IMG/VR virus record: IMGVR_UViG_3300035698_006372
Coordinates: 1 to 58,738 of that record
Origin: a virus
Strand: one strand, 5' to 3'
Length of the DNA: 58,738 nucleotides
Part shown: positions 2,535-56,787 of the stretch, in pieces
How the letters are laid out: every line of letters starts with the position of its first letter
Numbering within the stretch: position 1 is the stretch's first letter
Translations under genes and position numbers: made by a program
The notes under the pieces: generated by a model
What the model was told of the DNA's origin: nothing
The model's input: only the letters and a program-made list of their open reading frames with translations
Database searches by the model: none

Positions 2535-2840
2535 ATGGCGGCGTTCCATTGGCGGGAAGTTCGAGGACATAAGTTCAACGCGGAGGAAGCACAGGAGGCG
2601 TCTGACTTCGTTGAGGTACTGAAGTGCTTCGCATTTGACCCTGTGTCCGCCTACAGGATGTTCAAGGAAGAGGCTTCCCTGACCGTAGCCAAGCGGCTCG
2701 TGTTCGCGGAGAAGATAGACCTCCACAGCGCCACCACCCTTCTTCTGTGTGACCCTGATGAGCGTGTTCGGGGTGTCGTAGAGAATCGACTGGAAGAACA
2801 CCGGGAGGAAGAGAATGGCGGCATTATCATCACCGGCTAA
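2535..2840 (+). CDS. Small helical protein with variant leucine-repeat-like C-terminus (101 aa)
   Basis: The ATG follows CTGGAGGAGTA, a good ribosome binding site, and lies about 20 nt after a TATAAT box. The protein is helical; residues 75-92 (LCDPDERVRGVVENRLEE) resemble one repeat of the LRV/HEAT type. The gene overlaps the start of the metallopeptidase gene by 26 nt, so the two are probably translated together. No specific function can be assigned. Confidence 0.6.
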   Translation: MAAFHWREVRGHKFNAEEAQEASDFVEVLKCFAFDPVSAYRMFKEEASLTVAKRLVFAEKIDLHSATTLLLCDPDERVRGVVENRLEEHREEENGGIIITG

Positions 2841-4134
2841 GGGGACTGCGTCCTCGCTGGCATCGGGCGTCATAATCACTCCGGGGAGGGAGAAGTCCAT
2901 GCCCTTGGATGATGCCACAAAGGCCCGAGTGAGGAAAGAGGTCGTCAAGGGTATCGTCAACATCTCCCGCCACAAAGAGTTTTATGGCCACATTATCCAG
3001 CAGTTCGAAAAGGTCTTCGTGAATGCCGGTCACGAGGTCAATACGGCAGCCGTTGGCCGGTATCCGGGACTGCGGTTTATCAAGCTCTGGCTGAGCCTTC
3101 CATTCTTCCGTGGCATCCTTGAGGGTGCGGACATTAAGCAGTCCCGGACGTGGCTCAAGGGTGTTCTGGAGCATGAGATACTTCATATCGTGTTCGGACA
3201 TCTCTTTCTGAAGCTGGAGGATAATACTCGTGGCGGCGTGGCTACGGACTGTGTCATTAACTCGATTCTGAACCCGGAAGACAAGAAGGATGTCCTGCCG
3301 GGCAACTACGCTCATCCGGCACATTACGGCTTTCCGCTGGACAAGTCTGCGCTGTGGTACTATACCCATCTTCGCGAGAATGAGAAGTTCAAGAGGCAGT
3401 GCGCTTCCGGGGCTTTTGGAGTGGGAGGCATTCTGTCGCACATCATGCGGTCGCACGGGGCCTGGAAGGATGTCGAAGATGACCCGGTGACCAAGGAGTT
3501 CGCCAAGGACATTATTCGCAAGTCCCGTGACCTATGCAATAAGGACTATGGCAAGGTGCCCGGCAGGGTCATACAGCAGATTGAGGAGCTTCTGAAGCGC
3601 AAGAAGGCGATTGTTCCGTGGAACAAGGTGCTGAGGATGTTCGTAGCTTCCTGTGCTGAGTCCGTTTTGGACTACACCATTAAGCGTATCAGCAGGCGTT
3701 ATGGAACCCGGCCCGGCACCCGTAAGGGTGACGTGCTCAGAATAGCCGTAGCGATTGACACTTCGAGTTCCATTAATGATGAGCAGTTGAAGCTCTTCTG
3801 GAACGAAATCAGGTGGATTTGGAAGAACGGGGCTCAGGTGTGGGTTTACGAGTGTGACACACATCTATCTGCGAGGTCTCCCTTCCGCTTCAAGGGCCGT
3901 TGGGATGGCAAGGTGCATGGAAGGGGCGGTACGAGAATCGAGCCTCCTCTGGCGCATGCTGAGGGCAAATACGACGCTCTTATTTACTTCACTGACTTCT
4001 ATGCGCCGAAGGTGAGCCGGAAGTACCGGATTCCGACGCTATGGATACTCTTGACGGAGATGAGCAAGGACGAATACCCATACCCATGGGGCCGTCATAT
4101 CAAGATTGAGGACGGGAAGGCGTTGGTGGCATAA
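2815..4134 (+). CDS. VWA-like putative metallopeptidase (DUF2201-type, 439 aa)
   Basis: Two signatures are visible. Around residue 120, EHEILHIVFGH is an HExxH zinc site with a third His. Around residue 315, VAIDTSSSI is the DxSxS metal-binding motif of a von Willebrand A-like domain. This order matches the family of putative metallopeptidases with a C-terminal VWA-like domain, usually about 400 aa. In bacteria these are often paired with MoxR-type ATPases; none is visible in this window. Two starts are possible: 2815 (GGAGG upstream, overlapping the previous gene) and 2899 (GGGAGGGAG upstream). Confidence 0.75.
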   Translation: MAALSSPAKGTASSLASGVIITPGREKSMPLDDATKARVRKEVVKGIVNISRHKEFYGHIIQQFEKVFVNAGHEVNTAAVGRYPGLRFIKLWLSLPFFRGILEGADIKQSRTWLKGVLEHEILHIVFGHLFLKLEDNTRGGVATDCVINSILNPEDKKDVLPGNYAHPAHYGFPLDKSALWYYTHLRENEKFKRQCASGAFGVGGILSHIMRSHGAWKDVEDDPVTKEFAKDIIRKSRDLCNKDYGKVPGRVIQQIEELLKRKKAIVPWNKVLRMFVASCAESVLDYTIKRISRRYGTRPGTRKGDVLRIAVAIDTSSSINDEQLKLFWNEIRWIWKNGAQVWVYECDTHLSARSPFRFKGRWDGKVHGRGGTRIEPPLAHAEGKYDALIYFTDFYAPKVSRKYRIPTLWILLTEMSKDEYPYPWGRHIKIEDGKALVA

Positions 4135-9555: not shown

Positions 9556-11397
9556 ATGGCTTCGAGCAACATTATTGCTGAGATTGCCAAGGAGTTTATC
9601 AGTGATAACACCGAGGAAGTGGTTGATGTCATCACTTTCGCGGAGGCTTCTTGGGGCTTAAATCTCGAACTCTACCCCTCTCAAAAGTTCACTCTGAAGT
9701 GCTTTTACGGGCTACCTCTCGATGGGACTGCCAAGAGCATCCGTGTCCCGGATATGATGAACGACAGAACCCTCTACACATTCACTGAGAGAGAGTTTCT
9801 GTCATGGATGTATGACGAAGGCCGGAGCAACACTGACGAGACAGAGGGTAAGTTATTTCAAGAGCTTATTCTTTCCTTCGGACGACGGAGCGGGAAGTCC
9901 GCCCTTGCCTCGTTTATTTCGAGCTATGAACTCTACAAGCTCATCAAGCGGGGCGACCCTGCTGGCTACTATAAGCACCAGTCTGGTTCCAAGGTCTATG
10001 TCCTGAACGTGGCCCCGACGGATGACCAAGCAGGTGTTGTCTTTGACATGATTCAGCAGCAGTCGGCTGAGTGTCCATACGTCCGGGATAGAATCCAGAA
10101 CAAGACCATGACGTACTTCAACATTCAGGTGGACTCCGACCTCAAGAATGCCGTCAACAAGAAGAGGGCGAGCTTGGTCATTCTTGCTGGTGGCTGTTCG
10201 TCGAACGGCTTGCGGGGACGTAATGCTATCGTTGTCATCATGGACGAGATGGCTTTCTTCATTGACAACGCCGGTCGCTTTTCCGGGTCTCAGGTTTACG
10301 ATGCGCTGACCCCATCCGTTGCGTCTTTCGGGAATGACGGCAAGACCATCTGTATCTCTTCTCCTTACGCCAAGTACGGCAAGTTCTACGAGCGCTGGCT
10401 GGAATCTTTCCATGAGACTGATTTTACGTTGTCCTTCAAGATGTATACCGCGTTGGCAAATCCGACCATTAAGCCGCAATACCTGAAGGCGAAAAGGCGG
10501 CAGAACCGAATCACCTTCGCGTGCGAGTTCGGGGCCGAGTTCAGTGATGCCGTGACAGCTTGGGTGGATGATGAAGCCGAGTTCAGAAGGTGCATCGCTC
10601 GAAAGGAAGTATCTGGTCGCGGTCAGCCGGATGTCAATTATTTCATGGGTATCGACCTTGGGTTCAAAAATGATGGCACTGCCATTGCTATTGTTCATCG
10701 GGACGAACAGACCCGTCGCATCATTCTGGACTATGCCGAGGTCTGGTTTTCAGGTGCGTCTGACGTGTGGGACTTTGACGACAGCATTTACAAGGGATGC
10801 ACAAAGTACGCTCATCTTGAACTGCTCAGGATGGCGGACATCGTGGCGGAGATAAAGGAGCTTACGAAGTGGTTCACGATAAAGGGCGGTATTTTCGACC
10901 AGAGCAATGGATATGCTTTGCAGGAGTTGCTGGGCAAGGAGAATCTCAAGCAAGTCGAGATGGAGAACTTTACGGATACGACGAACCATCAGGTCTATGA
11001 ATTGACCAAGCGGATGTATGCCGAGCAGTTGCTCGACCTCTATGAGCATCCCGTGCTTGTTCCTGAGATGTTGACCCTGGAGGCCGAGAAGAAGGCCAAG
11101 AATAAGATTCTAGTACGGGCTCCCGTTCGTCGCGGGGCACATGATGATATCTCGGATGCCGTCGCTCGTGCTGTTTGGATGTGCTACAAGGCCCATAAGC
11201 AGCGGCCCCCTTACCTTGTGACTGGTGCAGGTGGGGTGACGGGTGGCGGTCATGTCGTGGGTCATCATGGCCCGGCGTCGATGAGAGTGAAGCAGCAGAC
11301 TCAAGCGTCTTTTTTCATCGACCGAAGGAAGAAGCACGGCGAGCATCCTCGCGATAAGAAACGGCTCATGAGGCGTATGCCGGGAGCAGTAAGATAA
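9556..11397 (+). CDS. terL: Terminase large subunit (613 aa)
   Basis: This is the DNA-packaging motor ATPase and headful or site-specific nuclease. Visible motifs are the Walker A variant FGRRSGKSALAS (about residues 108-119), the Walker B AIVVIMDEMAFF (about 223-234), the RNase H-like nuclease start GIDLGFKNDGTAIAI (about 361-375) and a late HDDISDAVARAV acidic motif (about 530). The length suits the family. The arginine-rich C-terminal tail (KKHGEHPRDKKRLMRRM) is lineage specific. The stop overlaps the ATG of the topoisomerase gene by one base. Confidence 0.93.
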   Translation: MASSNIIAEIAKEFISDNTEEVVDVITFAEASWGLNLELYPSQKFTLKCFYGLPLDGTAKSIRVPDMMNDRTLYTFTEREFLSWMYDEGRSNTDETEGKLFQELILSFGRRSGKSALASFISSYELYKLIKRGDPAGYYKHQSGSKVYVLNVAPTDDQAGVVFDMIQQQSAECPYVRDRIQNKTMTYFNIQVDSDLKNAVNKKRASLVILAGGCSSNGLRGRNAIVVIMDEMAFFIDNAGRFSGSQVYDALTPSVASFGNDGKTICISSPYAKYGKFYERWLESFHETDFTLSFKMYTALANPTIKPQYLKAKRRQNRITFACEFGAEFSDAVTAWVDDEAEFRRCIARKEVSGRGQPDVNYFMGIDLGFKNDGTAIAIVHRDEQTRRIILDYAEVWFSGASDVWDFDDSIYKGCTKYAHLELLRMADIVAEIKELTKWFTIKGGIFDQSNGYALQELLGKENLKQVEMENFTDTTNHQVYELTKRMYAEQLLDLYEHPVLVPEMLTLEAEKKAKNKILVRAPVRRGAHDDISDAVARAVWMCYKAHKQRPPYLVTGAGGVTGGGHVVGHHGPASMRVKQQTQASFFIDRRKKHGEHPRDKKRLMRRMPGAVR

Positions 11398-12473
11398 TGG
11401 ATGACAAACTCATGACTAAGGAAGAGGCGGTGCGTCGTCAGAAGAAGACGAAGTCCGTTCGCAGTTTGGCTCAGCAGATAGGTACTTTGAGGGGTCGGGT
11501 TCGGCGTGATTTGCGTTCGAAGGACGAGAAGATACGACTGACGGCGCTCGCGGTCGCCCTGATGGATAAGACGGCTGAGCGCGTGGGAAATAATGCCTCT
11601 GCCAAGGATGGACATTTCGGTGTCACGGGCTGGACGAAGAAGCACATCACCATCAGCGGAAACAAGGTTACGCTCAAGTATGTCGGTAAGTCCGGTGTCA
11701 AGCAGGACAAGTCGTTTACGGACAAAACGCTGGCCTCGATGATGAAGGCGTGCTTGAAGGGCAAGAAGGCGACGCTCCTGACCATGGATGACGGGACAGA
11801 GATTCGGTCGGCTCAGGTGAATAAGTATCTGAAGGACTTCGGTATCACGGCGAAGGATATCCGGGGCTACCGGGCGAACGACTTGCTGGTGAAGATTCTC
11901 AAGGCGACCAAGGCCCCGTCTACCCCGGAAGAGCGCAAGAAGACGCTCAAGGAAGCCATGAAGCAGGTCGCTGAGGCTGTTGGCCATCAGCAGGCTACGC
12001 TGAAGAAGCACTACATTCTGCCGGGCGTCGAGGAGAGCTACATCAGTAGTGGCTCTGTCAAGAAGGTCAGGAACGCGGCTCTCGTGACGAGAATTGCATT
12101 TCTGACGCAGAACGTGGCTGATTCCGAGTATTTCCGCCAGTTGACGGAGTGCTACGTTGCGGAAATCATACCAATATTGGAAGGGGCACATGAGAGGATG
12201 ATAGGCCCTCTGACGAATCAGGTCGTCATTCATATTGCCGTGACAGATGATGGCTTGCCAGAGGGGAAGGTGGGCTCATTTCAGCATCCCGATGACGGGG
12301 AGAGGGATGGTCTTCTCAAAATAAGCCCTCGCGCTTTTGAGTCAAATCATTGGAAAAACGTTGCGCTGCATGAGGTTATACACGCCATGCTCGGAGAGAG
12401 GGAAGACCCGCATTGCGAAGATTTTGATATTTTGTCCAAGGTGATGGGACTACCTGTCGAGTTTCGAGACTGA
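11397..12473 (+). CDS. Topoisomerase IB-like domain fused to a zincin-like C-terminal domain (358 aa)
   Basis: Residues 1-225 resemble the catalytic part of type IB topoisomerases: a GHFGVTGWTKKHI entry, a YVGKSG lysine segment (about 94), KDIRGYRAND with the probable catalytic Arg (about 155), and GHQQATLKKHYILP with the expected His and nucleophilic Tyr (about 197-210). Residues 240-358 form a separate domain with LHEVIHAML (about 325), an HExxH zinc site, and a downstream H and DFD, similar to SprT-like proteases. Both halves are continuous in one frame. It lies between the terminase and virion genes. Confidence 0.7.
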   Translation: MDDKLMTKEEAVRRQKKTKSVRSLAQQIGTLRGRVRRDLRSKDEKIRLTALAVALMDKTAERVGNNASAKDGHFGVTGWTKKHITISGNKVTLKYVGKSGVKQDKSFTDKTLASMMKACLKGKKATLLTMDDGTEIRSAQVNKYLKDFGITAKDIRGYRANDLLVKILKATKAPSTPEERKKTLKEAMKQVAEAVGHQQATLKKHYILPGVEESYISSGSVKKVRNAALVTRIAFLTQNVADSEYFRQLTECYVAEIIPILEGAHERMIGPLTNQVVIHIAVTDDGLPEGKVGSFQHPDDGERDGLLKISPRAFESNHWKNVALHEVIHAMLGEREDPHCEDFDILSKVMGLPVEFRD

Positions 12474-13104: not shown

Positions 13105-13512
13105 ATGGACAGATTTGAGAGAATAGCGAATAGGATTGCCATGGACAGCATGGGGGTTGACCCCATGTCGATGAAGGTTGCCCAGTTTTTCAAGGACAAC
13201 CCGGCTCCCAGCGACAGCGATTTTCATAGCTGGTGCGAGGATTCGGGAATTGACGAACACATGGCTGAGGCGGCGGCTTATCGCTTGGGGACAATTCTCA
13301 CGACGTTCCTTTTCCAAGGGCGAGCGGCGGAGAAGAACTTCACCGAGAGGGATGCTGACTCGGCGGAGCTTTCAATGGGCATCGCGGTTGAAATGGAGCA
13401 TACATCGTGCATGTTTTTAGCCAAGCGTATTGCCATCGATCATTTGGCAGAGATAAAGGATTACTACACACGCTTGAAGGCGATGGAAGAAGAAGCGGGT
13501 ATCAAGGACTAG
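13105..13512 (+). CDS. DUF5661-like protein (135 aa)
   Basis: The N-terminus (MDRFERIANRIAMDSMG) is the short helical motif shared by many proteins in this window. Residues 98-125 (MEHTSCMFLAKRIAIDHL then EIKDYYTRL) match the pattern of DUF5661, an uncharacterised helical domain common in large phages. It lies between virion genes and has good ribosome binding (GGAGATTGTC). Confidence 0.65.
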   Translation: MDRFERIANRIAMDSMGVDPMSMKVAQFFKDNPAPSDSDFHSWCEDSGIDEHMAEAAAYRLGTILTTFLFQGRAAEKNFTERDADSAELSMGIAVEMEHTSCMFLAKRIAIDHLAEIKDYYTRLKAMEEEAGIKD

Positions 13513-13545: not shown

Positions 13546-14103
13546 ATGAGTAAGATAGGCGCGAGTACACTGGAAGGCGTGAGGGCGGCAGAGAGCGGGC
13601 TGAAGCGTGCCGAGTTCAATAATATGTTGAAGTCGTTGCCGGAAGGTCATCCGCTGAAGGATGAGGCCGACCGGGTAGCGGAAGAAGTTGGTGGTGACTT
13701 GGCGGGATTGCCGGACGGCCATCCGCTTATTGTGCAGCTACAGATGGCCAAGGAGAGATACGACTCCGCCATTGCTGAAGAAACAGACGACGCACAGAAG
13801 AAGACTCGCAAACTGAAGAAGGCCAGGAAGCTTGACGCAGCGAAGAAGAGGCGCAAGCGAATCGCTCAAGATGAAGACAGGGAGTCGAGGCACCGGGAGG
13901 CAGCCAAGTCGGTCAATAACGGCATTGACAATGTGATGGATTCTCTGAAGGAACTGTATGAGATACTGGCAGCCCAAGAAGAGACTCTCAATGCTGACCA
14001 TCTGACCAGGAATAAGATGTTGCGTCTCAAGAGGATGCTCTACGCGGCGGAACGAGGGCTTTCGGATAGCCGTATAAACAGGAGAGTGAATCATGGCCGT
14101 TAA
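13546..14103 (+). CDS. Coiled-coil, highly basic protein before the portal (185 aa)
   Basis: Two short repeats, LPEGHPLKDEADRV (about residue 30) and LPDGHPLIVQLQM (about 54), precede a Lys/Arg-rich coiled coil (KKTRKLKKARKLDAAKKRRKR, about 86-106) and a long helix. The gene overlaps the portal start. Basic helical proteins here could be scaffold-associated or bind DNA in the head; this is inference. Confidence 0.5.
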   Translation: MSKIGASTLEGVRAAESGLKRAEFNNMLKSLPEGHPLKDEADRVAEEVGGDLAGLPDGHPLIVQLQMAKERYDSAIAEETDDAQKKTRKLKKARKLDAAKKRRKRIAQDEDRESRHREAAKSVNNGIDNVMDSLKELYEILAAQEETLNADHLTRNKMLRLKRMLYAAERGLSDSRINRRVNHGR

Positions 14104-16030
14104 AAGTACAATCAGAAGGACACCGGTTCTGACCACGAAGGGCGGCATAAAGCGTCCCAAGGTGGTAACTGCAAAGGCTGACCCCATAAAGGCAAGGATT
14201 GCCAGGAAGGCAATTTCCGCCGGAGGGTTTGGGGGAAGTCGTCAGGCTGGTATGCTGATTGATACTTCTCAGCAGTCATCCTCCTATCGTTCTGGCTACG
14301 TGCTGGACACATACCGTACGTCCTACGCTTACGGCTTGGGTGACCGGTCTGGCACGTATGACATTCCGACGTACTTTGTTCAGATGAACGAGCAGAACGG
14401 TGGGTTGCTTTACTGGCCGACTACCCTGCGGGAGAAGTACAGTTGGTATCGTTATTGGGCTCGGTCGGATGCCTACATCGGTCGGTCTCTGGAATTGCTT
14501 TCCGATTTGCCGATGTCGAAGCTTACGCTCAACATGCCCAAACCCAAGGGGAAGCTGACCAAGCCCTTGAGGCAGGAGATTCTGGACTTCTTCACGTACC
14601 AGATGGAAGTCATCGGCGGCTTCAACCTGTGCCAGTCAATCCTCTGGGAATGGAATATGATTGGCAACGTGTTCCTCTTTCATGAGTGGGACGACGAGAA
14701 GAAGATGTGGTCTCGGGCCGTAATGCTTCCGCCGGAAGAGGTCTCTGTCTTCCAGTATCCTTTCAGTGACAACAAGCGGGTCGAGTACAAGCCGGACAGG
14801 CTCATTAAGCTCATTAAGGATGGCGAGGCGGGTTACGGCGATGGCAAGTCCTCCCTGCCGAGCGGAGAGTATGACCGCTCAGGTATGAACGCCGAGATTG
14901 TTGAAAATGTCCCGGATGAACTCGTCAAGATGGTTCAGGAAAAGGGTTGCATCGTAATGGACAGCGACCCGATGACGGGCTCGTTCGTGCATCACATCGC
15001 ACGCCGTCGTTCTCCGTATATGGACTTGGGCGCATCTGTGTTGGAGCGCGTACTGGTGCCAATGTTGCAGAAGGAGCATTACAAGTATACCCAGTTGAGC
15101 TTGGCCAGCAGGAACATGACGCCGAAGAACATAATTTCGGCTCCGGGATTGCTTCCGCCAGAACTGGACGACCTTCGCACTCAGGTTGACCTGAGCTATC
15201 TTGACCCCGAGTACAGTATCATCACCAACTACGAGGTTTCATGGGAACAGATTGGCACGAGTGACCGACTGCTTGACCTCACGTCGGAGTACGAACGCAT
15301 CGAGGCTCAGATTTTTGCTGCTATGGGCGTGACTCGCGAACTTCTGACGGGCGAGGGCGTGTTCTCGGGCAGCAAAATCACCGTGGATATCTTAAATACG
15401 ATGTTCCTCCTGACCCGTAATGTTCTTCGCGACTATATTGAGCGCAGCCTGTTCATCCCGGTGTGCGAGAAACATGGCTGGTACGAAGAGGACGGGAACG
15501 GCATCAAGAAGTACTGGTATCCCGAGATTGGCTTCAATCGTTTGACTATTCGTGACAACGCGGAAGTTTTCGATTCGTTGTTCCAGTTGTATCAGAAGGG
15601 CAGTCTCCCGGTGGACATTATTTACGAACTGTTCAACCTCAATGCCGACGAGATTGACGAGAAGCTCCGGGAGGATTTGTTCACGGTCAAGGACGCCAAC
15701 TTCAACCGGACGATTGAAGAGATGTCTTCTGAGGTTGGCAGGACACTTGCTGAGCGCTCGAACATTGCCGAGAAGATGGCCAAGTACCTGTCGCTGGATT
15801 ATCAACAGGTAGCGCCCGAGGGCGACGGCGAGGGAGGCTTTGGCGCTGATGAGGAAGGAGGGGGCTTTGACGAAAGTGGTTTTAGCGGTTTCGACGACGA
15901 GTCGGAAGACGCCGGAATGAGTGGAGAAGAGCATGATGCTTTGGTCAATACGGTGGTCGATAGATTGCCGGATGGTGCGTCTGATGAAGATATCGTCAGA
16001 ACTGTAGAAGAGGTCGCAGCGACCGTATAG
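14093..16030 (+). CDS. Portal protein (645 aa)
   Basis: This is the dodecameric head-vertex portal through which DNA is packaged. The pattern of large-phage portals is visible: a basic flexible N-terminus (1-70), a TTLREKYSWYRYWARSDAYIG core start (about 110), an aromatic SILWEWNMIGNVFLFHEW wing segment (about 182), a stem/crown ILNTMFLLTRNVLRDYIERS region (about 430) and an acidic Gly-rich C-terminal tail. The length and the order terminase then portal support the call. Confidence 0.85.
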   Translation: MAVKSTIRRTPVLTTKGGIKRPKVVTAKADPIKARIARKAISAGGFGGSRQAGMLIDTSQQSSSYRSGYVLDTYRTSYAYGLGDRSGTYDIPTYFVQMNEQNGGLLYWPTTLREKYSWYRYWARSDAYIGRSLELLSDLPMSKLTLNMPKPKGKLTKPLRQEILDFFTYQMEVIGGFNLCQSILWEWNMIGNVFLFHEWDDEKKMWSRAVMLPPEEVSVFQYPFSDNKRVEYKPDRLIKLIKDGEAGYGDGKSSLPSGEYDRSGMNAEIVENVPDELVKMVQEKGCIVMDSDPMTGSFVHHIARRRSPYMDLGASVLERVLVPMLQKEHYKYTQLSLASRNMTPKNIISAPGLLPPELDDLRTQVDLSYLDPEYSIITNYEVSWEQIGTSDRLLDLTSEYERIEAQIFAAMGVTRELLTGEGVFSGSKITVDILNTMFLLTRNVLRDYIERSLFIPVCEKHGWYEEDGNGIKKYWYPEIGFNRLTIRDNAEVFDSLFQLYQKGSLPVDIIYELFNLNADEIDEKLREDLFTVKDANFNRTIEEMSSEVGRTLAERSNIAEKMAKYLSLDYQQVAPEGDGEGGFGADEEGGGFDESGFSGFDDESEDAGMSGEEHDALVNTVVDRLPDGASDEDIVRTVEEVAATV

Positions 16031-27439: not shown

Positions 27440-30400
27440 ATGGAAAGACGCTGTACAACCGAGTCATGCCTGCTGATGGCAGGGACGAAGTTCACTCTCG
27501 ACCTTCCCGTGGTTTCCGTTCTCACGAGGCCAAGACAAGAATGGAACACTCTGGCTCATGGCCATGGTGGCGTCCGGGTAGCTCGTGACATCGAGGTGGA
27601 TTGGGGAACCTTTACGGCTGACAGTCATCTCTTCACGCATTGTTTTCCTGCCGGGACGGAAATCCTTATGGCGGACGGTACGGGAAAGCCTATAGAATCA
27701 ATCATAGAGGGGGATATGGTTCTGTCTCATAAGGGTATTTCTAGGGCTGTGAAAGCCACGATGATCCGAGAAGTTGATGAAGAACTTGTGGGACTGGATG
27801 TGGCATCCGTTGGTAAGGTTTTCAGCACATCTGAACATCCTTATTGGATTATTCCGAAAGAAAAGTCTTGGTGTGTTCACAATAAGGGGTGGAAGAAGTG
27901 CATTTATGGAGTTGGCGGGAGATGTAAAAAGTGGTCTTGTTCGGGGAATGGGGAAGATTGCTCTTTCGTGGAGGCAGGAGATATTAAGGCTGGAGACTTG
28001 ACATTCACTCCTTCCTTGCATGGAGAGGTGGATAACACAGAGTTCGGCCTTGGGAGATTCAGACTTCTTGGTTATTACACGGCAGAAGGGCGAATCGACA
28101 AGGACGATAGAGGTAATGCTCAAGATTCTGTACGATTTAGCATTTCGAGAAAAGAGTTGGACACAATTGGTGCAGAAATCATTTCGCTGATGTCGGATTG
28201 CTTTGGGACTGACTCCTATTCCAAGTTCGGAGACCCATTAGAAGATGGGGTTACTCTTTCGTTTACGGGCAACTCTGCCGCGTCGTGGTTCCGTCGGATG
28301 GTTGGGGTTGGAAGCCTGAAGAAGAGATTCTCATTTGACGTAATGGTTGCCCCGAAAGAATATCAGGTTGAATTACTTGATGCTTGGATTGCTGGTGATG
28401 GTAATTTAGGGAAGAGGGATTCCAATGTCAGGCTCTCCACCTCAAGTAAATATCTCGCGTCACAAGCGGAAGTTCTATTCGACCGGGTTGGAGCATTAGG
28501 GATTAAGCATGGAATGAAAAATTCCGGCGGCCCAACCAATAGGGACAAGGAGTGCTTCATTTGGCAGATTGATGTCCAGAACGCAAGACTTGGTATGCTT
28601 GCAAGTAGATTTCCGGCTAAAGAATATTCACGATGGCCTCGGACAGGAGAAAGATATCGCCATGCAGCTTGTGTTGTAAGCAAGATTCGCTCTGTGTCTC
28701 GAAAATCATTTAAGGGAACAGTCTACAACCTTTCCGTTGATATTGATGAAAGCTATGTCGCTGAAAGGTGTGCTGTCCACAACTGTACCATCGTCGCATC
28801 CGTGGCCGCCGAAGAAAACGGCTACCACATCAAGCCCGCCTGTAACGGATTGGTAAACAACAACGGCAACGCTTGGACGAATGAAGTCCTCCTGTCCACG
28901 TTCAGGTCGTTTGTGGGTGGCGAGAACTATCTGGAGCATATCCAGATTCCTGAGCTTTCCAAGGGCAAGATTCTGGACGCCGTACTTCGTCCGGTCACCT
29001 ACAAGGACTCTCAGGGCCGCGAGGCCGATGTCTACTACTGCTTTTCCGGCGAGTCGAAAGTTCTCCTTGCAGATGGTTCTGTTTCTGAAATTAAGGATAT
29101 CCTTCCGGGGGTGGAGGTTATTTCTGGAGATGGGACGGTTCAGGAAGTTCTTGCGCTCAGTCACAGATTCGTACCTTCCGAGGACTTGGTAAAGGTTTCG
29201 GTGAGGGGGGTAATTGATGACACGGCGGTAACGGGGAATCACGGCCTTTGGGCTAAGAAGAACCTAGATGAAGAATGGGGATGGGTTGAAGCGAACTGTC
29301 TTGAAAAAAACTGGTGGGTTCTTCAGCCTACGCCAGATATTTGTGGGGATAAGAAGGTGTCGTCGGATTTTGCATGGCTTACTGGCGAATATGCCGCTGA
29401 GGGCTCTCTTGTGCAGCGCAAGGGGGCAGATGGTTCTCCATATTGGTCATTCACCCAATTTACTTGCCATATTGATGAAAAGGATGTGATTACCAAAGCG
29501 ACTGAATCTGTCTTAGATGAAATGGGAACTTACGATGTGCCGTTTTTCAGATCGAGATGGAACAGTGATGCACATAATATCCGAAAATGTTCTGGTTCGA
29601 TAGACTCTCGTGACAAGGGAAACGGTAGCAACATTCGAGTGGGGCATCGGGAATTGGCCTCTCGGATGTTTGACTTGTGCGGAAAAGGGGCAGCGTCAAA
29701 GAGTCTATCATCCGAGATATTGGTTGACTGGGACGATGAGTCGAAACTGCATTTCTTGGCTGGATTGATTGACGGGGATGGACACGCTCGGCGTAATGTT
29801 GTTTCTGTCAAGTCTGTAAGTAATGGCATGATTCGACAAGTAGAGTTCATTTTGTCTTCTTTAGGGATGGCTTATTCGAGCACGGGCAACTGGCACAATG
29901 GCCCTTATTCTGGATGTGTGACGATTGAACTTGATTGCTATTCGTCTGACCGCTTGCGCCCATATTTGAGAATCAAGAATGGATTTGACAAGCCTCCCGT
30001 GGAAGTTTCGATGAACAATCGGGCATCTCTTGCTGTTGATGGCGGGATAGCGAGAAGGGTTTCAGAAACGCAAAAGATGCAGGGCGAAGTGGAAATCCCT
30101 GTTTACAATATAGAGGTATCTGAAAACCACACCTATATTGTTCACAATGTGAAAGTGAAAAATTGCGACATCCTCGTGGCTACCGATAGGAGGCACGCCG
30201 GACTGGTGACCAAAATTGCAGGCGGCAAGCTCAATACCATGAGCATGGGTTGCGGAATAGCAGGAACCCCTGTGACAATGGCCGATGGGGCAACAAGGCC
30301 CGTTGAGGATATTGTTGTAGGAGACAAGGTGATTACCCATACCGGGGGAATTGCCGAGGTTGAGTCTACAAGGGTTCGCCAGACAACTTCGGGAGAACTG

Positions 30401-31897
30401 AGAAGACTTTCCGTAACCGGGATTCCAGACACGTATGTGACGAGTGAGCATCCATACTGGGCCTTGACTGGTTATGATGTTTGCACTGGATGTGGAAAGG
30501 AAATGGGTAGAAGTAAGGCCATCTCTTGGAGTTTGGACCAAGTCCTTCATCCATGGTGTTCGTCTTCTTGTCGGCAAAGGCACGTCAATTCCAACCCGAA
30601 ATGCAAAAAGAGCTTTGAGCCAATAGCTCAGAAGGTAAAATTTGGATGGGTGCCAGTATCGGAACTACGCAAGGGAGACTATGTTGCGGTTCCTCTTGGA
30701 AGGCCAGAGAAGGACAGGCGGGTGATTGACAGGTTCAAAGCAAGGCTTCTTGGATACTATGCCGCTGAGGGAAATCTTCAGCGTGCGAAAAACGGGCATA
30801 TTCGAGCGGTTGAGTTCACACTTCATGCCGACGAGCCAGCCGGAGACGAGATTGTTGAGCTTGCAAGAGAATGGGGCATAACTGAAGACAAAATATATTC
30901 ACAAGTCAGGAAAAGAAAGAGCGGGAAAAGCCGTCGAATTGTAATTCATGATTCGGGAATGGCGAAATGGCTCAAGAAGACATGTGGAGAGCATTGCGAC
31001 AAGAAGAGGCTTGAGTCATGGGTCTTAGATGCTTGTGACGATTCTCTTCTTGAGGTACTTGGTTCGTATATCAGTGGAGATGGTCATTGTCGGAAAGACT
31101 CTGCTCGTTTTACGACTGCAAGCTGTAGTCGTTCTCTCAGTGAACAGGTTTTGACAATGCTGATGGCAGTCGGGATTCCTGCAAATATCTCTTTGTCTCA
31201 GCAAAAGGGTAAAAAGCCAGCATGGTATGTGAACACAAGGAAGGGACATGCCGGAATCCTTAAGGGACGGACTTCCAAGTTTCTTCCTCAGCAGGAAAAC
31301 AACGCAAAGGTGTCCAGTGTTGGCGGATATATGCTCCGCAGAGTTAAGTCAAACGTGTCTGTGGACTTGGTTTGTGATGTTTTCAATATCCATGTCGTCA
31401 ATTCGACGAACGACCATTCATATATCATGAACGGGATTGCTGTCCACAACTGCTTGGCCGACTACGTGCAATGCTCTCGTTGCGGAAAAATCTTTGCAGA
31501 CAGTGAGCCCAGTTGCGAGCATATCGAGCGGCAGCTTCTTCAGTCTTTCACGGATGAGGACGGCGTTGAGAGAATTGTTGCGGAACTGTGTGGCCGCACG
31601 CTGGTTCAAGACGGTAATCGTGTCGGCGATGAGGGGTCTTGCAATTTCATTGAGGCGTCATGGGTCGAGAGGCCCGCCTTCTATGGCGCTGTCTTGAATC
31701 ATTATCTTACTGAACTTCCCGTGACGGCTCAGGTCCTTCAGTTCTCGACGCCGAAGCTGGCCGAGGTGGTGGATGATATTTTCCGGCTGAGGGTGGCAGA
31801 CCGTGCGGGAATGATTACGCTCAGGGTGGCTCGGGCCGAATTGATGCGTAGAAAGCGCAAGGCGATGGTGAGCCGGGTTGCGAACAGTTTCATGTAA
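27440..31897 (+). CDS. Head-maturation-type virion protein interrupted by three inteins (1485 aa precursor)
   Basis: Removing three inteins leaves about 329 residues. The extein contains HCTIVASVAAEENGY, then ENYLEHIQIPELSKGKILDA, YYCDILVATDRRHAGLVTKI, LNTMSMGCLADYVQCSRCG and FIEASWVERPAFYGAVL, a combination I recognise from the conserved protein just upstream of capsid genes in many large phages, often called a head maturation protease. Catalytic residues cannot be assigned with confidence. All three inteins sit before a Cys of conserved segments. The N-terminal ~40 residues before the first conserved segment may be affected by frame disturbance upstream. Confidence 0.65.
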   Translation: MERRCTTESCLLMAGTKFTLDLPVVSVLTRPRQEWNTLAHGHGGVRVARDIEVDWGTFTADSHLFTHCFPAGTEILMADGTGKPIESIIEGDMVLSHKGISRAVKATMIREVDEELVGLDVASVGKVFSTSEHPYWIIPKEKSWCVHNKGWKKCIYGVGGRCKKWSCSGNGEDCSFVEAGDIKAGDLTFTPSLHGEVDNTEFGLGRFRLLGYYTAEGRIDKDDRGNAQDSVRFSISRKELDTIGAEIISLMSDCFGTDSYSKFGDPLEDGVTLSFTGNSAASWFRRMVGVGSLKKRFSFDVMVAPKEYQVELLDAWIAGDGNLGKRDSNVRLSTSSKYLASQAEVLFDRVGALGIKHGMKNSGGPTNRDKECFIWQIDVQNARLGMLASRFPAKEYSRWPRTGERYRHAACVVSKIRSVSRKSFKGTVYNLSVDIDESYVAERCAVHNCTIVASVAAEENGYHIKPACNGLVNNNGNAWTNEVLLSTFRSFVGGENYLEHIQIPELSKGKILDAVLRPVTYKDSQGREADVYYCFSGESKVLLADGSVSEIKDILPGVEVISGDGTVQEVLALSHRFVPSEDLVKVSVRGVIDDTAVTGNHGLWAKKNLDEEWGWVEANCLEKNWWVLQPTPDICGDKKVSSDFAWLTGEYAAEGSLVQRKGADGSPYWSFTQFTCHIDEKDVITKATESVLDEMGTYDVPFFRSRWNSDAHNIRKCSGSIDSRDKGNGSNIRVGHRELASRMFDLCGKGAASKSLSSEILVDWDDESKLHFLAGLIDGDGHARRNVVSVKSVSNGMIRQVEFILSSLGMAYSSTGNWHNGPYSGCVTIELDCYSSDRLRPYLRIKNGFDKPPVEVSMNNRASLAVDGGIARRVSETQKMQGEVEIPVYNIEVSENHTYIVHNVKVKNCDILVATDRRHAGLVTKIAGGKLNTMSMGCGIAGTPVTMADGATRPVEDIVVGDKVITHTGGIAEVESTRVRQTTSGELRRLSVTGIPDTYVTSEHPYWALTGYDVCTGCGKEMGRSKAISWSLDQVLHPWCSSSCRQRHVNSNPKCKKSFEPIAQKVKFGWVPVSELRKGDYVAVPLGRPEKDRRVIDRFKARLLGYYAAEGNLQRAKNGHIRAVEFTLHADEPAGDEIVELAREWGITEDKIYSQVRKRKSGKSRRIVIHDSGMAKWLKKTCGEHCDKKRLESWVLDACDDSLLEVLGSYISGDGHCRKDSARFTTASCSRSLSEQVLTMLMAVGIPANISLSQQKGKKPAWYVNTRKGHAGILKGRTSKFLPQQENNAKVSSVGGYMLRRVKSNVSVDLVCDVFNIHVVNSTNDHSYIMNGIAVHNCLADYVQCSRCGKIFADSEPSCEHIERQLLQSFTDEDGVERIVAELCGRTLVQDGNRVGDEGSCNFIEASWVERPAFYGAVLNHYLTELPVTAQVLQFSTPKLAEVVDDIFRLRVADRAGMITLRVARAELMRRKRKAMVSRVANSFM
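27641..28783 (+). other. Intein 1 of the head-maturation-type protein (381 aa, LAGLIDADG)
   Basis: It starts at Cys in CFPAGTEILMADGTGKPI, a standard intein N-terminal block, and ends with YVAERCAVHN before Cys +1 of CTIVAS. Inside are two LAGLIDADG-type motifs (LLGYYTAEG and LDAWIAGDG), so it is a full intein with homing endonuclease. It should splice itself out to join HLFTH to CTIVA. Confidence 0.9.
29039..30163 (+). other. Intein 2 of the head-maturation-type protein (375 aa, atypical C-terminus)
   Basis: It begins CFSGESKVLLADGSVSEI and ends TYIVHNVKVKN before Cys of CDILVA. Endonuclease motifs are WLTGEYAAEG and FLAGLIDGDG. The usual penultimate His is replaced by Lys (VKN), while an HN pair lies five residues earlier; splicing chemistry at this end may be altered. 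Confidence 0.85.
30251..31450 (+). other. Intein 3 of the head-maturation-type protein (400 aa, LAGLIDADG)
   Basis: It begins CGIAGTPVTMADGATRPVED and ends MNGIAVHN before Cys of CLADYVQC. Endonuclease motifs are LLGYYAAEG and VLGSYISGDG. A small Cys-rich insertion (CTGCGKEMG and CSSSCRQRH) lies between the N-terminal splicing block and the endonuclease. Confidence 0.9.
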
Positions 31898-41077: not shown

Positions 41078-44000
41078 ATGACAACATTACTGGACAAGAT
41101 ACGAGCGAAAAACCTTGCTGGGCAGGCTCCGGCTCCCATGGTGACAACCTCTCCCGGCAAGCCAGCCAAAAGCCTCAGAATGAGCGCTAGGGAGGCTCTC
41201 AAAGTCTTCGGACATGAAGCCTTCAGGGAAGGACAGGAGGAGGTCGTCAACGAGGTTGTGAGTGGCACAGGCGGCGTTCTGGCTATCTTCCCAACAGGTT
41301 ACGGGAAATGCTTGGGAGGCGATGTGGGCGTTTTGATGTATAGCGGAAGAACAAAGAACGTGAAGGACGTGCGGTCCGGCGATGAGTTGATGGGGCCAGA
41401 CAGTAGTCCAAGGCGGGTCGTCAGTATTACAAGCGGGCATGGAGACCTGTATGAGGTTGTCCCGAGAAAAGGTGACCCGTATGTGACGAATGGGGAGCAT
41501 CTTATTTCATTAAGGCGAACTGAGAAAGAATTGGCCGGGAAGCTGTCTACCGTGGCTGCGAAGGACTGGGAATCAAAGACCAATAATTTCAAACATGTGC
41601 ATAAGGGCTGGAGAACGGGGGTTGATTTTCCAGAATGCTATGTCAGTGAAATTGTTACACCCTATTTCTTGGGATTGTGGCTAGGGGACGGGTCGTCGGA
41701 CTTCCCTCACATTACGACCGCAGATGGGGAAATCAAGGATTTCGTCAGGAGCCATGCTGCGAAGTTGTGCTTAAAAGTGAGAACAAACTGGAAAAAGGGG
41801 AGTCTCGCAAACACATACTGCATAACGAGCGGGAGGAGCGGAGGGGGAGCGGGTCACCATCCAAATCAACTCCTACACGCGATGCGAGAAATGGGCGTCA
41901 TAAATGACAAACATATTCCCTATGAATATCTGGTCAATAGTCGGGAAAACAGGTTGGAGTTACTGGCTGGACTTATCGACAGCGACGGATGTCTGAATGG
42001 AGAATGTTGTTATGAATTGACATTTAAGATAGAGCGATTGGCTAAAGATGCCGTGTTTTTGGCACGGTCTTTGGGTCTGGCGGCATATTGTACCAAGTGC
42101 AGGAAGAAGTGCTTCAACAATGGCAAGACTGGCACATATTTCCGAATTGGTATAAGCGGGGATGTTGAAGAAATCCCCGTCTTGCTGAAAAGAAAAAGAG
42201 CGAAAAAGAGAATCGCAATTAAAAACCATATGAATGTGGGGATAACCGTTAAGCCGTATGGAAAGGGCAATTACTACGGCTTCATGCTTGACGGCGACCA
42301 TCTGTTTCTTCTGGATGATTTTACCGTAACCCATAACTCCTTAGTTTACCAGCTTCCCTCGCTCATGTCGAACAATCTGACCGTGGTCGTATCCCCACTC
42401 ATCGCCCTAATGAAAGACCAAGTGGACAAACTCCAGAGTCTTGGGGTCAACGCCATTCTTATCAACTCGACTCTTTCCGAAATGGAGACCAGAATTGCGC
42501 TCGCGGAAGTGTCGAGTGGCGGCATCACGGCTCTGTACGTGGCTCCCGAGAGGTTTCGTAACAAGCAGTTCATCGGGGCCATCAGTAATATGGACATCGA
42601 CATTCTTGCCATTGACGAGGCCCATTGTTTCATTGGGGATACGATGGTTTTGACGCCTTACGGTGAGCGACGAATTGACTCTCTCCGGGTGGGGGACGAA
42701 GTCATTTCAGGTCAAGATGTAGAGCCTGTTGTCCGCAAGGTGTCGCGACTGTTCCTTCATCGTGGTCTGGACGTGTGGAAGATTAGTATCAACGGGCGAG
42801 ACATTTATTGCGATGGTGGTCAGCAGTTTTTCGTAAAAAGCATTGGCTTCGTTCGTGTGGACAATATACGATGTGGGCATGAAATCATTATCGAAGAGTC
42901 AGACGGTGGTGTGCGAAGTTTGCGGGACTGTCCGGGAGATGCGACTCAGGAAAGGTCGTCCGCCGAGCAAGTATTGTTCTCGGGGATGCCAGAGGAAGGG
43001 GTCGGGGAAGACCAGAAGTGTTCCGACGGTGGGGAAGACATGTCCGTCGTGCGGGGAGACATTTCAGACCAAGCCGGGATACAGGACTCGGCACTGTTCG
43101 ACTCTGTGTGGCCAGCGTTCGGAAGCGAAGAAGCTGGAGGCATCGGAGAGGATGACTCGGGACAACCCAATGAAGAGGGAAGAAGTCAGAAAGGCCGTTG
43201 GGGATATTTTGGCTGGGAAGGACAAGTTCAAGACGAACCGGGGCGGAAACGGTCGAGGCTCAACGAGGCCGGAGAAGTCACTGGCGGTTGCGGGGAGATT
43301 CTCGCTGAACCACATTGTAAGGACAGGACATTGCCGGGATGGGAGTGGTTATCCAACACATTACAAACTGGACTTGTCGTGGCCATCTCTGAAGGTGGCA
43401 GTGGAAGTGGACGGCCCGTCGCACAAGGCGTTGAAGATACAAGACGCAGACCAGCGGAAGGAGTTGTTTTTAAGGTCGCTCGGGTGGAAGGTGTTTCGCG
43501 TGTCGAACGAGGAAGCACTCTTACAACCGGGGAATGCCTTGGGAAGAATCCGGTTGGGGTGCGGCTTTACGACATCGAAGTTGAAGGAAGTCATAACTTC
43601 TTTGCAAATGGCTCCTTAGCTCACAACTGTATCAGCCGATGGGGACATGACTTCCGTCCAGCTTATTCCGACCTTGGTGGGGCTGCCGAAATGCTCAACC
43701 CGAGGATGGTTGTCGCCTTGACGGCTACGGCTACAACGAAGGTGCAAGACGATATCTGTCATGTGCTGGGAATGCCCAATGCCAAGAGGTTCGTGAGAAG
43801 CGTCTACCGGAGCAATCTTCAACTCGCCGTGGTGCATCAGTCCGGGTATGGCCGGATGCAGTGCATCACCGAAGTGGCGAAGGACTTCATAGGCGAGGGG
43901 AACAATACCGGAATTATCTATTCCACGACACGGAAAGAAGCAGAGGAAATCTGCGCATATCTACGGGAAAGGAATGTCCCGGCCATGTTCTATCATGCCG

Positions 44001-46009
44001 GACTGAAGCCCGCTATCCGTGAGAAAGTTCAGAACGAGTGGTCTCAGAATGGTGGTGTCATCGTGGCGACCTGTGCTTTCGGCATGGGTATTGACAAGCC
44101 CGATGTCCGGTTCGTCATCCACTCGGGGCTTTCCCCGAGCATTGAGGACTGGTATCAGGCGTGTGTCTATCCAGATTCGATGATATTAACGCCAGAAGGG
44201 GAGATGGAGGCATCTGATATCTCCGAGGGGGATATTGTAGCAACCATTGGGGAAGATGGTGATATATCTTCAAACAGGGTCGTTAAGAAAATTCTAGGAC
44301 ATTCTAGCGAGTGGGTCAGAATCAGGACAAAATACGGTTCTGAAATACTGGTGACTCCGAATCATCCTGTGTATTTGCGAATGGACAAGCGGTACGAAAG
44401 AGCGGATAAGTGCAAAACTGGAGATGGAATACTCAATGCCGAACACTCAAGGGAATATTCTCCAAAGGATTACAATTTTCTCGATTTCGTGAATACCGAC
44501 TTGACCTATGTTATGGTGTCACCATCTGTTTTAGACAAGGTGCGGAGTGCTCTTTCTCCTGTTGAAATGCAGAGAATATTCCAACTAAATCGTCCGCATG
44601 ATTATTCTGCATACGGGAAAGGGAAGAGGGCTCGGCTATCATGCTGGGCTGATGCGTGTAGAAAAGCAGGGGTAGAGACAGAAGAGCTATATAAGAATGT
44701 CTCAAAAATAGGCACGAGGAGCGGCACCTCTCTTGCTCGGCCTTGTTCTATGGATGGAGATTTTGGATGGCTATTGGGGATACTTGTGACAGATGGGCAC
44801 ATAAAACAAGTCAAGTCCAAGAGAATGGGAGACACCAGAAGAATTACGTTTGGTAATACTGATTCTAAAATCTTGTTAAAATTTGAGAGAATTGTTGGCT
44901 CATACGGACTTAATTGCAGCAAATACAAAAGAAAAGAGAGACAAGGAGAAAAAGAGTTTTGGGAGCTTTCCGTGTCCTCTCAACCATTGGTTGATGTTCT
45001 CGTCGCATTCGGAATGAAGGTGGGTGCAAAGTCGTACAATGTTTTATGTGATGACAAGATTAAATCTGCACCCCTTGGTTTTATCGGGGGATTCCTCGCG
45101 GGTTGTTTTGACGGAGACGGCAATTACTCAAAGCAAAATAATTCTTTCAGAATACATTCGGCATCTTGGGCGATGGTATCCTCGATGGTTGGTATTCTTC
45201 GCATGCACGGAATAAGAATGAAAATTCACACCGAGACATATCGTGGACCCGATAAGTTTGGTGCGAAGTCCCCATTCGGCTACTGTGGGGCGATATCTGG
45301 TGCCGGGAGCATTTCAGAGTTCTTGGCTCTTACTTCTGATTATAGCGTAAAGGAACAATCCTGTGATATTGAGAGCATTCGATGTCGAAGGAAAAGGAAA
45401 CCGTGCGAAGAAGATGCCATAATAGAGATTGAATCTGTCAGCATGAGTTCTCCTACGGTCAATTTTGCAGTAGAGTCCGACAATAATTATTTTGTGGATG
45501 GCGTTTTAACTCATAATTGTGGACGGGCCGGGCGTGACGGCAAGGAATCTCTTTGTCTGACCGTCTGCGACTTCAAAGACGATTATCGGACTCAGATGTT
45601 CCTGATTGACATGACGAACCCGACCGGGGCCGATGTGAAAAGGTTCTGGGCATGGCTCCAACTTGTAGCGTCGAAACAGATGGCTCCCGGAGAGAAGACG
45701 ACCGAAGTTAAGATGACTCAGAAAGTCATGAAAGAGGAGTCCGGGTGTCTCAACGTCGGCGCGTGTATCTCAGTTCTAAAGAAGAGCGGACTCGTTGAGA
45801 CGCTCGGCAGGGGCCGGTACAAGGTCAATCTGAAGGACGTGGTCATCGAAACTGATGTGCTCACGGCTGCGAGAAACGATAAGGTTGCGAAGCTCAATCA
45901 GGTCTGTGACTTCTATCGGATGTCCGGGTGCCGCTTCAAGTTCGTCTGTGACTATTTCGGGGATATGTCCTTTCCGGGTAGCTGTGGGAATTGTGACAAC
46001 TGTACGTAA
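41078..46009 (+). CDS. recQ: RecQ-type DNA helicase with three inteins (1643 aa precursor)
   Basis: The extein of about 514 residues carries RecQ superfamily 2 helicase motifs: FREGQEEVVNEVV, Walker A PTGYGK|SLVYQLP, VVVSPLIALMKDQV, ALYVAPERFR, Walker B IDEAH|CISRWGHDFRP, LTATAT, GIIYSTTRKEAEEICAYL, and motif VI HSGLSPSIEDWYQA|CGRAGRDG, plus a zinc-binding/winged-helix C-terminus (CNVGAC-like, ending CGNCDNCT). Bars mark intein positions. Each intein interrupts a catalytic motif, so the helicase is inactive until all three splice. The gene starts almost directly at its TATAAT promoter. Confidence 0.88.
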   Translation: MTTLLDKIRAKNLAGQAPAPMVTTSPGKPAKSLRMSAREALKVFGHEAFREGQEEVVNEVVSGTGGVLAIFPTGYGKCLGGDVGVLMYSGRTKNVKDVRSGDELMGPDSSPRRVVSITSGHGDLYEVVPRKGDPYVTNGEHLISLRRTEKELAGKLSTVAAKDWESKTNNFKHVHKGWRTGVDFPECYVSEIVTPYFLGLWLGDGSSDFPHITTADGEIKDFVRSHAAKLCLKVRTNWKKGSLANTYCITSGRSGGGAGHHPNQLLHAMREMGVINDKHIPYEYLVNSRENRLELLAGLIDSDGCLNGECCYELTFKIERLAKDAVFLARSLGLAAYCTKCRKKCFNNGKTGTYFRIGISGDVEEIPVLLKRKRAKKRIAIKNHMNVGITVKPYGKGNYYGFMLDGDHLFLLDDFTVTHNSLVYQLPSLMSNNLTVVVSPLIALMKDQVDKLQSLGVNAILINSTLSEMETRIALAEVSSGGITALYVAPERFRNKQFIGAISNMDIDILAIDEAHCFIGDTMVLTPYGERRIDSLRVGDEVISGQDVEPVVRKVSRLFLHRGLDVWKISINGRDIYCDGGQQFFVKSIGFVRVDNIRCGHEIIIEESDGGVRSLRDCPGDATQERSSAEQVLFSGMPEEGVGEDQKCSDGGEDMSVVRGDISDQAGIQDSALFDSVWPAFGSEEAGGIGEDDSGQPNEEGRSQKGRWGYFGWEGQVQDEPGRKRSRLNEAGEVTGGCGEILAEPHCKDRTLPGWEWLSNTLQTGLVVAISEGGSGSGRPVAQGVEDTRRRPAEGVVFKVARVEGVSRVERGSTLTTGECLGKNPVGVRLYDIEVEGSHNFFANGSLAHNCISRWGHDFRPAYSDLGGAAEMLNPRMVVALTATATTKVQDDICHVLGMPNAKRFVRSVYRSNLQLAVVHQSGYGRMQCITEVAKDFIGEGNNTGIIYSTTRKEAEEICAYLRERNVPAMFYHAGLKPAIREKVQNEWSQNGGVIVATCAFGMGIDKPDVRFVIHSGLSPSIEDWYQACVYPDSMILTPEGEMEASDISEGDIVATIGEDGDISSNRVVKKILGHSSEWVRIRTKYGSEILVTPNHPVYLRMDKRYERADKCKTGDGILNAEHSREYSPKDYNFLDFVNTDLTYVMVSPSVLDKVRSALSPVEMQRIFQLNRPHDYSAYGKGKRARLSCWADACRKAGVETEELYKNVSKIGTRSGTSLARPCSMDGDFGWLLGILVTDGHIKQVKSKRMGDTRRITFGNTDSKILLKFERIVGSYGLNCSKYKRKERQGEKEFWELSVSSQPLVDVLVAFGMKVGAKSYNVLCDDKIKSAPLGFIGGFLAGCFDGDGNYSKQNNSFRIHSASWAMVSSMVGILRMHGIRMKIHTETYRGPDKFGAKSPFGYCGAISGAGSISEFLALTSDYSVKEQSCDIESIRCRRKRKPCEEDAIIEIESVSMSSPTVNFAVESDNNYFVDGVLTHNCGRAGRDGKESLCLTVCDFKDDYRTQMFLIDMTNPTGADVKRFWAWLQLVASKQMAPGEKTTEVKMTQKVMKEESGCLNVGACISVLKKSGLVETLGRGRYKVNLKDVVIETDVLTAARNDKVAKLNQVCDFYRMSGCRFKFVCDYFGDMSFPGSCGNCDNCT
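41309..42337 (+). other. RecQ intein 1 in the P-loop (343 aa, LAGLIDADG)
   Basis: Begins CLGGDVGVLMYSGRTKNVKD and ends LLDDFTVTHN before Ser of SLVYQLP, the Walker A serine. Endonuclease motifs are FLGLWLGDG and LLAGLIDSDG. Insertion between GK and S is a common intein site because the codons are so conserved. Confidence 0.9.
42626..43627 (+). other. RecQ intein 2 in the DEAH box, with overprinted endonuclease (334 aa)
   Basis: N-terminal splicing block CFIGDTMVLTPYGERRID and VGDEVIS; C-terminal block VRLYDIEVEGSHNFFANGSL then AHN before Cys of CISRWG. The ~230 residues between have no LAGLIDADG or HNH motif and a strange Gly/Glu/Arg/Ser composition, because the same DNA encodes a real endonuclease in the +1 frame (42879-43619). 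The intein frame stays open throughout. Confidence 0.85.
42879..43619 (+). CDS. Vsr-like homing endonuclease encoded out of frame inside RecQ intein 2 (246 aa)
   Basis: In the +1 frame relative to the helicase, an ATG opens a 246-residue protein with two zinc ribbons (C12-C15-C33-C37 and C55-C58-C73-C77), a NUMOD3-type motif (RMTRDNPMKREEVRKAVG, about 91-108), and a C-terminal PD-(D/E)xK/Vsr-like nuclease (HYKLDLSWPSLKVAVEVDGP then RKELFLRSLGWKVFRVSNEE). Its stop lies nine bases before the intein ends. All expected domains of a mobile endonuclease are intact. Free-standing Vsr-like endonucleases are known inside split inteins; here the host intein is not split but overprinted. Confidence 0.85.
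   Translation: MKSLSKSQTVVCEVCGTVREMRLRKGRPPSKYCSRGCQRKGSGKTRSVPTVGKTCPSCGETFQTKPGYRTRHCSTLCGQRSEAKKLEASERMTRDNPMKREEVRKAVGDILAGKDKFKTNRGGNGRGSTRPEKSLAVAGRFSLNHIVRTGHCRDGSGYPTHYKLDLSWPSLKVAVEVDGPSHKALKIQDADQRKELFLRSLGWKVFRVSNEEALLQPGNALGRIRLGCGFTTSKLKEVITSLQMAP
44162..45517 (+). other. RecQ intein 3 in helicase motif VI (452 aa, LAGLIDADG)
   Basis: Begins CVYPDSMILTPEGEMEASDI and ends NYFVDGVLTHN before Cys of CGRAGRDG, the arginine-finger motif. Endonuclease motifs are LLGILVTDG and FLAGCFDGDG. The intein DNA is A/T-rich relative to the extein. Confidence 0.9.
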
Positions 46010-56172: not shown

Positions 56173-56589
56173 GGGCGTGACTTGGTTTCGACCTACGAAT
56201 GCAAGTTGCGAACTGCATGTGGAAGCATGGTAAGAGTGGCTTCCTTAAAACTCTTCCAAAACGAAGTAAACGGAAACGTTCTTCAATTCTCTGGTGCCGT
56301 GGCCCCCGTGGCCATGGCTGCCTAACGGCAACCAGCGTTGCGCTCTCGGCTTGCTGAGGAGAGGGATGTAGCGACGATATGACAGCAGAACCCCGGTGGG
56401 TGTCCGGGAAATGGCATCCAATGAGAGTGTGCGACGCCCGTTTACTACGGTGCTCTCTGGAAGAAGAGTCTACTGCGGCCTGCCGGGGGCCTAATCCTGA
56501 TGGCGACATTGGGAAGAAGTACCCGGACAAACATGTAGAGGTTCGTGATAAGCTCGTATGGGACCGGGGTTCGATTCCCCGCACGTCCA
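56173..56589 (+). ncRNA. ssrA: tmRNA (ssrA), 417 nt
   Basis: The 5-prime GGGCGTG pairs with CACGTCC at the 3-prime end (seven pairs, one G-U). The conserved TTTCGAC follows the acceptor strand, and GGGGTTCGATTCCCC forms the T-arm. The mRNA-like part contains a frame ending AVAPVAMAA then TAA at 56323-56325, the Ala-Ala ending typical of degradation tags; the resume codon is near 56257-56260 but not certain. CCA is not encoded (CACGTCC is followed by AAG). It rescues stalled ribosomes and tags their products. Confidence 0.9.
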
Positions 56590-56787
56590 AGTTGGTGATT
56601 TCAGACCACCGCCAAGTGGTACCAACTGGAAACAGCCGAAAGGCTGGCTAAGAGTCTGAAAAATGAGAGTCGATGATATCCTGAATGATTTTCAGGAACT
56701 GGAGATTTTTTATTCGCAGGCCCATCCGGGTTTACTGGCATAGTGGGACATGAGTCTCTCGTGTCTTCATCCGAAGACGGAGGTCGT
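56590..56787 (+). other. tmRNA-ACP spacer with hairpins and possible weak promoter
   Basis: About 200 nt without a convincing gene. It contains CAGCCGAAAGGCTGG, a stable GAAA hairpin just after the tmRNA, and a CCTGAATGATTTTCAGG hairpin. ACTGGCATAGTGGGACATGAG near 56733 resembles the class A 3-prime box. A 26-codon frame at 56664 is not supported. Confidence 0.35.

Follow-up and report, generated by a model that had tools for sequence, protein, structure and literature searches.

The locus described here raises the question of whether a single phage protein can both form covalent links to DNA and clear them. Type IB topoisomerases (TopIB) link to DNA via a 3′-phosphotyrosyl bond. Eukaryotes keep the two roles apart, with TOP1 as the protein that is trapped and SPRTN as a separate protease that clears it; SPRTN is a DNA-dependent protease required to resolve DNA–protein crosslinks (PMC5127644), and TDP1/SPRTN repair TOP1 crosslinks (PMC10547559). 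A compact phage protein joining both folds would provide a tractable system in which to ask if a topoisomerase can clear itself once a protease is tethered to it. The recurrence of TopIB beside terminase and portal genes in large phages prompts the further question of what a type IB topoisomerase is needed for when very large genomes are packaged or ejected.

The gene concerned lies within the DNA-packaging gene cluster of a large phage, in a 58.7-kb virus record (58,738 nucleotides; hereafter the window). It is a single uninterrupted open frame of 358 codons; one base is common to its ATG and to the TAA that ends the terminase gene (TAATG), and the portal gene is located 1.6 kb downstream. 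An earlier note on this DNA had remarked on the position beside packaging genes, which the terminase and portal genes bear out; the order TerL – TopIB/SprT – ... – portal is common to three viral contigs, i.e. the window and two loci denoted L008 and L009.

9556–11397, plus strand: terminase large subunit (TerL; PHROG terminase, E=1.2e-26), directly upstream of the fusion gene in the window, L008 and L009
11397–12473, plus strand: TopIB/SprT-like fusion gene, in a single frame
14093–16030, plus strand: portal protein (PHROG portal, E=1.2e-20), downstream in the window, L008 and L009

Judged from sequence and model, residues 7–223 form the catalytic domain of a type IB topoisomerase, for which relaxation activity is predicted.

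11415–12065, plus strand: TopIB catalytic domain as assigned from Pfam, fold and invariant pentad (residues 7–223), without the N-terminal clamp
12012–12014, plus strand: codon for Y206, the tyrosine predicted to act as nucleophile

The Pfam Topoisom_I family (PF01028) matches residues 13–205 (E=4.4e-30; 105.2 bits against a cut-off of 23.7), and the best PDB sequence match is to D. radiodurans TopIB (2f4q, 8.5e-18), followed by human and poxvirus TopIB. The Lys, Arg, His and Tyr motifs which the earlier note had read in the N-terminal part correspond to K98, R62/R156, H197 and Y206; all five catalytic residues are invariant in a 68-row homologue alignment. In the AlphaFold2 model of the fusion protein, built on 68 homologues, the pLDDT is mostly >90 for residues 11–220; the modelled TopIB half superposes on D. 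radiodurans TopIB 3m4a with a VIA Z of 24.0 (rmsd 2.1 over 214 residues) and gives a Foldseek match of 8.4e-13. Assignment as a tyrosine recombinase instead of a topoisomerase was considered and rejected, the Z of 24 comparing with values of at most 15 (XerH) and Topoisom_I being the only Pfam match.

The catalytic fold and the R-K-R-H-Y pentad are shared with the bacterial and viral enzymes (D. radiodurans 2f4q/3m4a, vaccinia/variola); at the fourth pentad position the window protein has a histidine, as does human TOP1, whereas D. radiodurans has an asparagine in the sequence alignment. The window protein differs from canonical TopIB in its added C-terminal protease, in its location in a terminase/portal cluster, and in the absence of the N-terminal DNA-clamp domain; only ~7 residues precede the TopIB core, and residue 14 of the model aligns to D. 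radiodurans residue 88. The clamp domain lies outside the core definition of PF01028.

Similarity to most other TopIB proteins ends at about residue 223, beyond which the model comprises a linker of low confidence (pLDDT <50 at residues 228–242) and a compact C-terminal domain with an N-terminal helix, three strands, the HExxH helix and a last helix.

12066–12125, plus strand: inter-domain linker (residues 224–243)
12126–12470, plus strand: putative SprT-like zincin domain (residues 244–358), assigned from models, a SPRTN fold match and a Pfam pass in L008
12369–12383, plus strand: HEVIH zinc/catalytic motif (H325–H329), with E326 as the predicted general base
12411–12413, plus strand: H339, the predicted third zinc ligand, in an H..(D/E/K)F motif that is invariant in the three orthologues

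The HEVIH to which attention had been drawn in the C-terminal part is no chance motif, because a homologous C-terminal domain with matching features is present in L008 and L009. These have HELCH or HELIH, retain the third histidine and share a C-terminal '(M)G(L/V)P..(F/M)RD'; H325, E326, H329, H339 and the phenylalanine that follows are kept in all three proteins. Modelling of the C-terminal domain alone gave a pLDDT of 85.7 and a pTM of 0.77 for the best of five models, the only confident one, as the alignment comprises just three rows. The best PDB matches of this model are human SPRTN 6mdw (Z 8.6, rmsd 3.2, 99 aa) and 6mdx (Z 8.4), both of which are 'protease dependent DPC repair' structures, with the minigluzincins tied within 1 Z unit (abylysin/selecase, Z about 8.2). 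Many annotated SprT-like proteins among the BFVD viral models also match it. The Pfam SprT-like family (PF10263; cut-off 25.6 bits) scores 26.3 bits in L008, above the cut-off, and 24.7 and 13.7 bits in L009 and the window, respectively, below it. Comparison of the domain sequence with the PDB returned nothing significant, tblastn in phages gave chance matches only, and the NCBIfam search yielded no meaningful match.

The C-terminal domain shares with SPRTN/Spartan both the HExxH and the downstream H..F motif, at about 12% identity. It differs in its fusion to a topoisomerase and in having no ubiquitin- or p97-binding parts; it stops directly after the last helix, such that a zinc-binding or DNA-binding subdomain like that of SPRTN is absent. 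The minigluzincins/selecases (abylysin 4jiu, selecase 4qhf–4qhj, projannalysin 4jix; Z 7.2–8.2) are of similar minimal size, but are archaeal stand-alone zymogens, and the motif of the window protein is closer to SprT-like members. Structure prediction, proposed in the earlier note as a check on the two assignments, thus supports both folds, by AlphaFold models and by fold comparison; on this evidence the SprT-like assignment is probably right or very close, and protease activity is predicted.

A profile scan of viral contigs identified 80 loci with related TopIB genes, the closest two being L008 and L009, which encode a two-domain protein as in the window. The same two loci, and no others, were recovered with a profile of the C-terminal domain, whilst close-relative scans of viral contigs with the window protein alone or the C-terminal domain alone gave nothing; a scan of genome contigs found two relatives only, both in MAG contigs. 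Since the same fusion occurs at the same place in three contigs of widely differing GC (GC3 of the TopIB part: window 0.74, L008 0.95, L009 0.31), an assembly chimera is rejected, as is a sequencing error joining two genes, the concern raised in the earlier note. The TopIB/SprT fusion is real and is shared by three distantly related phages, and the arrangement is old, having been either transferred or long inherited. No description of it was found in the literature searched, and it is apparently new: the folds are known, the combination is not. According to a jumbo-phage review, as far as its excerpted text goes, subgroup 2.2 jumbo phages have both TopIB (PaBG, Lu11) and SprT-like proteins; these are reported there as separate proteins, with no mention of a fusion (PMC7824862).

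The TopIB halves of the three proteins are 60–61% identical and the protease halves 31–34%; retention of the HExxH and the third histidine despite the latter value suggests that the protease site is under selection. The window, L008, L009 and a further locus, L010, form a clade (100/100) in the maximum-likelihood tree built from TopIB domains. L010 encodes a TopIB-only protein of 251 aa, with no HExxH on its coding strand; as it is nested inside the fusion clade (97/85), it appears to have lost the SprT-like protease. The SprT/TopIB pairing arose once and was clearly inherited as a unit.

The fusion protein belongs to a much broader set. The profile scan of large-phage contigs gave 72 distinct TopIB ORFs, of about 250 to 2834 aa, and TerL or portal genes were located inside the fetched flank at 36 of 71 loci. 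The partners joined to TopIB in these relatives include HAD_SAK_1, 2H phosphoesterase, poly(A)-polymerase head, GNAT, phosphoribosyltransferase-like, DUF5661, gamma-glutamyl cyclotransferase (GGCT) and LPD1 domains, along with other HExxH domains that, sorted by eye, fall into at least five types. LPD1, the 'large polyvalent protein-associated domain', adjoins TopIB in L014 only and is absent from the window protein. Up to about five unrelated enzymatic domains are present per polypeptide in the relatives, compared with two in the window protein, which is a polyvalent-type phage protein and the smallest case of a wider family joining TopIB to changing partners. TopIB is apparently an undescribed recurrent core domain of such proteins beside terminase/portal genes in large phages. 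The polyvalent proteins that Iyer et al. 2017 (PMC5512222) described from phages and conjugative elements similarly carry unrelated enzymes in one chain near virion genes, and have in common with the present family a zincin peptidase hub and LPD1 (L014), 2H, GNAT and HAD partners; the word 'topoisomerase' is confined to the references of that paper, TopIB is not named there as a polyvalent domain, and the SprT-like zincin of the window lies outside the MPTase clades it describes.

Several domains that are fused to TopIB elsewhere occur as separate genes in the window.

13105–13512, plus strand: DUF5661 as a gene of its own; in L011, L045 and L054 this domain is part of a TopIB fusion
48558–49538, plus strand: stand-alone zincin (HEMAHH), matching the TopIB-fused zincin in L072 (phmmer E=1.3e-40) and also those in L050 and L065

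This zincin goes unrecognised by Pfam; the gene next to it (47551–48561) matches the segment lying alongside in L050 and L072. A poly(A) polymerase/HD gene at 19810 likewise stands alone in the window. A recurring short motif, 'LRVAARYK' / 'VASRFL', was observed at one or other end (N- or C-terminal) of numerous proteins, in many cases next to TopIB (L022, L064, L083, L059, L065, L080, L005–L007 and others; in the window at 13105, 23151, 46424 and 47551), and could be a capsid-targeting or processing signal. A second, divergent TopIB-like domain is present in L077 (4348–6678, same polypeptide) and L057 (2835–5330, neighbouring ORF).

The presence of HExxH motifs in 20 of the 72 TopIB ORFs, against a mean of 3.1 after shuffling and 16/163 for other ORFs ≥400 aa in length (Fisher p=0.0007), could be taken to mean that TopIB specifically attracts zincin partners. 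The excess vanishes within the 800–1500 aa length class, where zincins occur in 5/20 TopIB proteins and 6/22 other proteins of the same loci, and a specific TopIB–zincin association is therefore rejected.

With respect to function, the reading to which we tentatively incline, whilst judging it somewhat short of probable, is that the fused protein relaxes phage DNA and that its DNA-held protease removes stuck proteins, possibly including itself. The TopIB half would bind duplex phage DNA, nick it via Y206 and relax torsion during replication, packaging or ejection of the long genome; the protease half, thereby tethered on DNA, would cut bound or covalently stuck proteins, including trapped TopIB, and a DNA-anchored SPRTN analogue of this kind would keep DNA clear for the terminase/portal channel or the incoming genome. 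The TopIB fold and pentad, the best match to SPRTN, the retained zinc-site residues and the position between TerL and portal are consistent with these steps; the single origin, the loss in L010, the lack of a SPRTN-like DNA/zinc subdomain and the Pfam score of 13.7 bits in the window count against them. The narrower proposal of a 'form-and-clear' enzyme, in which a topoisomerase with its own SPRTN-type protease degrades itself when trapped and thus forms a self-contained crosslink-repair unit coupled to packaging, we consider unlikely. Because partner domains have been swapped freely at the TopIB locus, co-residence in one chain need not mean cooperation; self-clearing of DNA–protein crosslinks is put forward as a hypothesis, crosslink clearance being one of several possible roles. 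The varied partners, the loss in L010 and the frequency of zincins in other large proteins favour a polyvalent setting with this range of roles. On a rival, strictly polyvalent reading, the protein would be a virion component that accompanies the DNA on delivery, and the zincin would split itself from TopIB at the linker or process head proteins, with no crosslink role. This is possible, though rather doubtful. It accords with the large multi-domain relatives (LPD1, 2H, HAD, PAP, GNAT, GGCT and several zincin types), with the TerL/portal block, with a linker that is unstructured in the model at residues 228–242, and with the standing of zincin MPTases as the commonest polyvalent-protein domain, for which autoprocessing has been proposed, e.g. 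in P1 DdrB (PMC5512222). However, with no more than two domains the window protein has little to separate; the polyvalent MPTases fall into 12 clades without a specific relationship to those defined earlier, and use Glu as the third ligand (PMC5512222), whereas the window zincin has His and a SprT-like look.

If the protein acts early in infection, the protease might instead, once injected, cut proteins of the host, such as those of the nucleoid or DNA-bound defence proteins, with TopIB serving mainly for DNA targeting or for relaxing incoming DNA. The faster evolution of the protease half (31% versus 61% identity) would fit an arms race, and host proteins have been suggested as targets for the SprT-like enzymes of jumbo phages (PMC7824862), but the gene has a late location, among head genes, and we regard such a role as distinctly unlikely. 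Least probable of all, and in our view very unlikely, is that two useful but functionally unlinked enzymes share a chain only through a local gene order that favours read-through, and that the domain shuffling is neutral: the many partner domains at the same site, the loss in L010 and the single origin speak for it, yet the pairing has persisted to ~61% TopIB identity and across GC3 values of 0.31–0.95 with its active site intact. On the DNA-clearing reading, as on the others, the two activities are predicted ones.

Some further features of the window may be recorded. The gene at 2815–4134 (plus strand) encodes a DUF2201 metallopeptidase/VWA protein; in the jumbo-phage review, proteins of this type are proposed to act as virion-assembly helpers together with a MoxR ATPase (PMC7824862). 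Two genes (27440–31897 and 41078–46009, plus strand) are interrupted by several inteins; one of the pair encodes a helicase of the RecQ type that also carries Hint, intein-splicing and homing-endonuclease domains, and the other is prohead-protease-like by eye, with three intein-like inserts. A tmRNA gene, missed by ARAGORN, was located at 56173–56590 (plus strand; Rfam RF00023, 86.8 bits, E=2.5e-33), next to a tRNA-Met at 57091.
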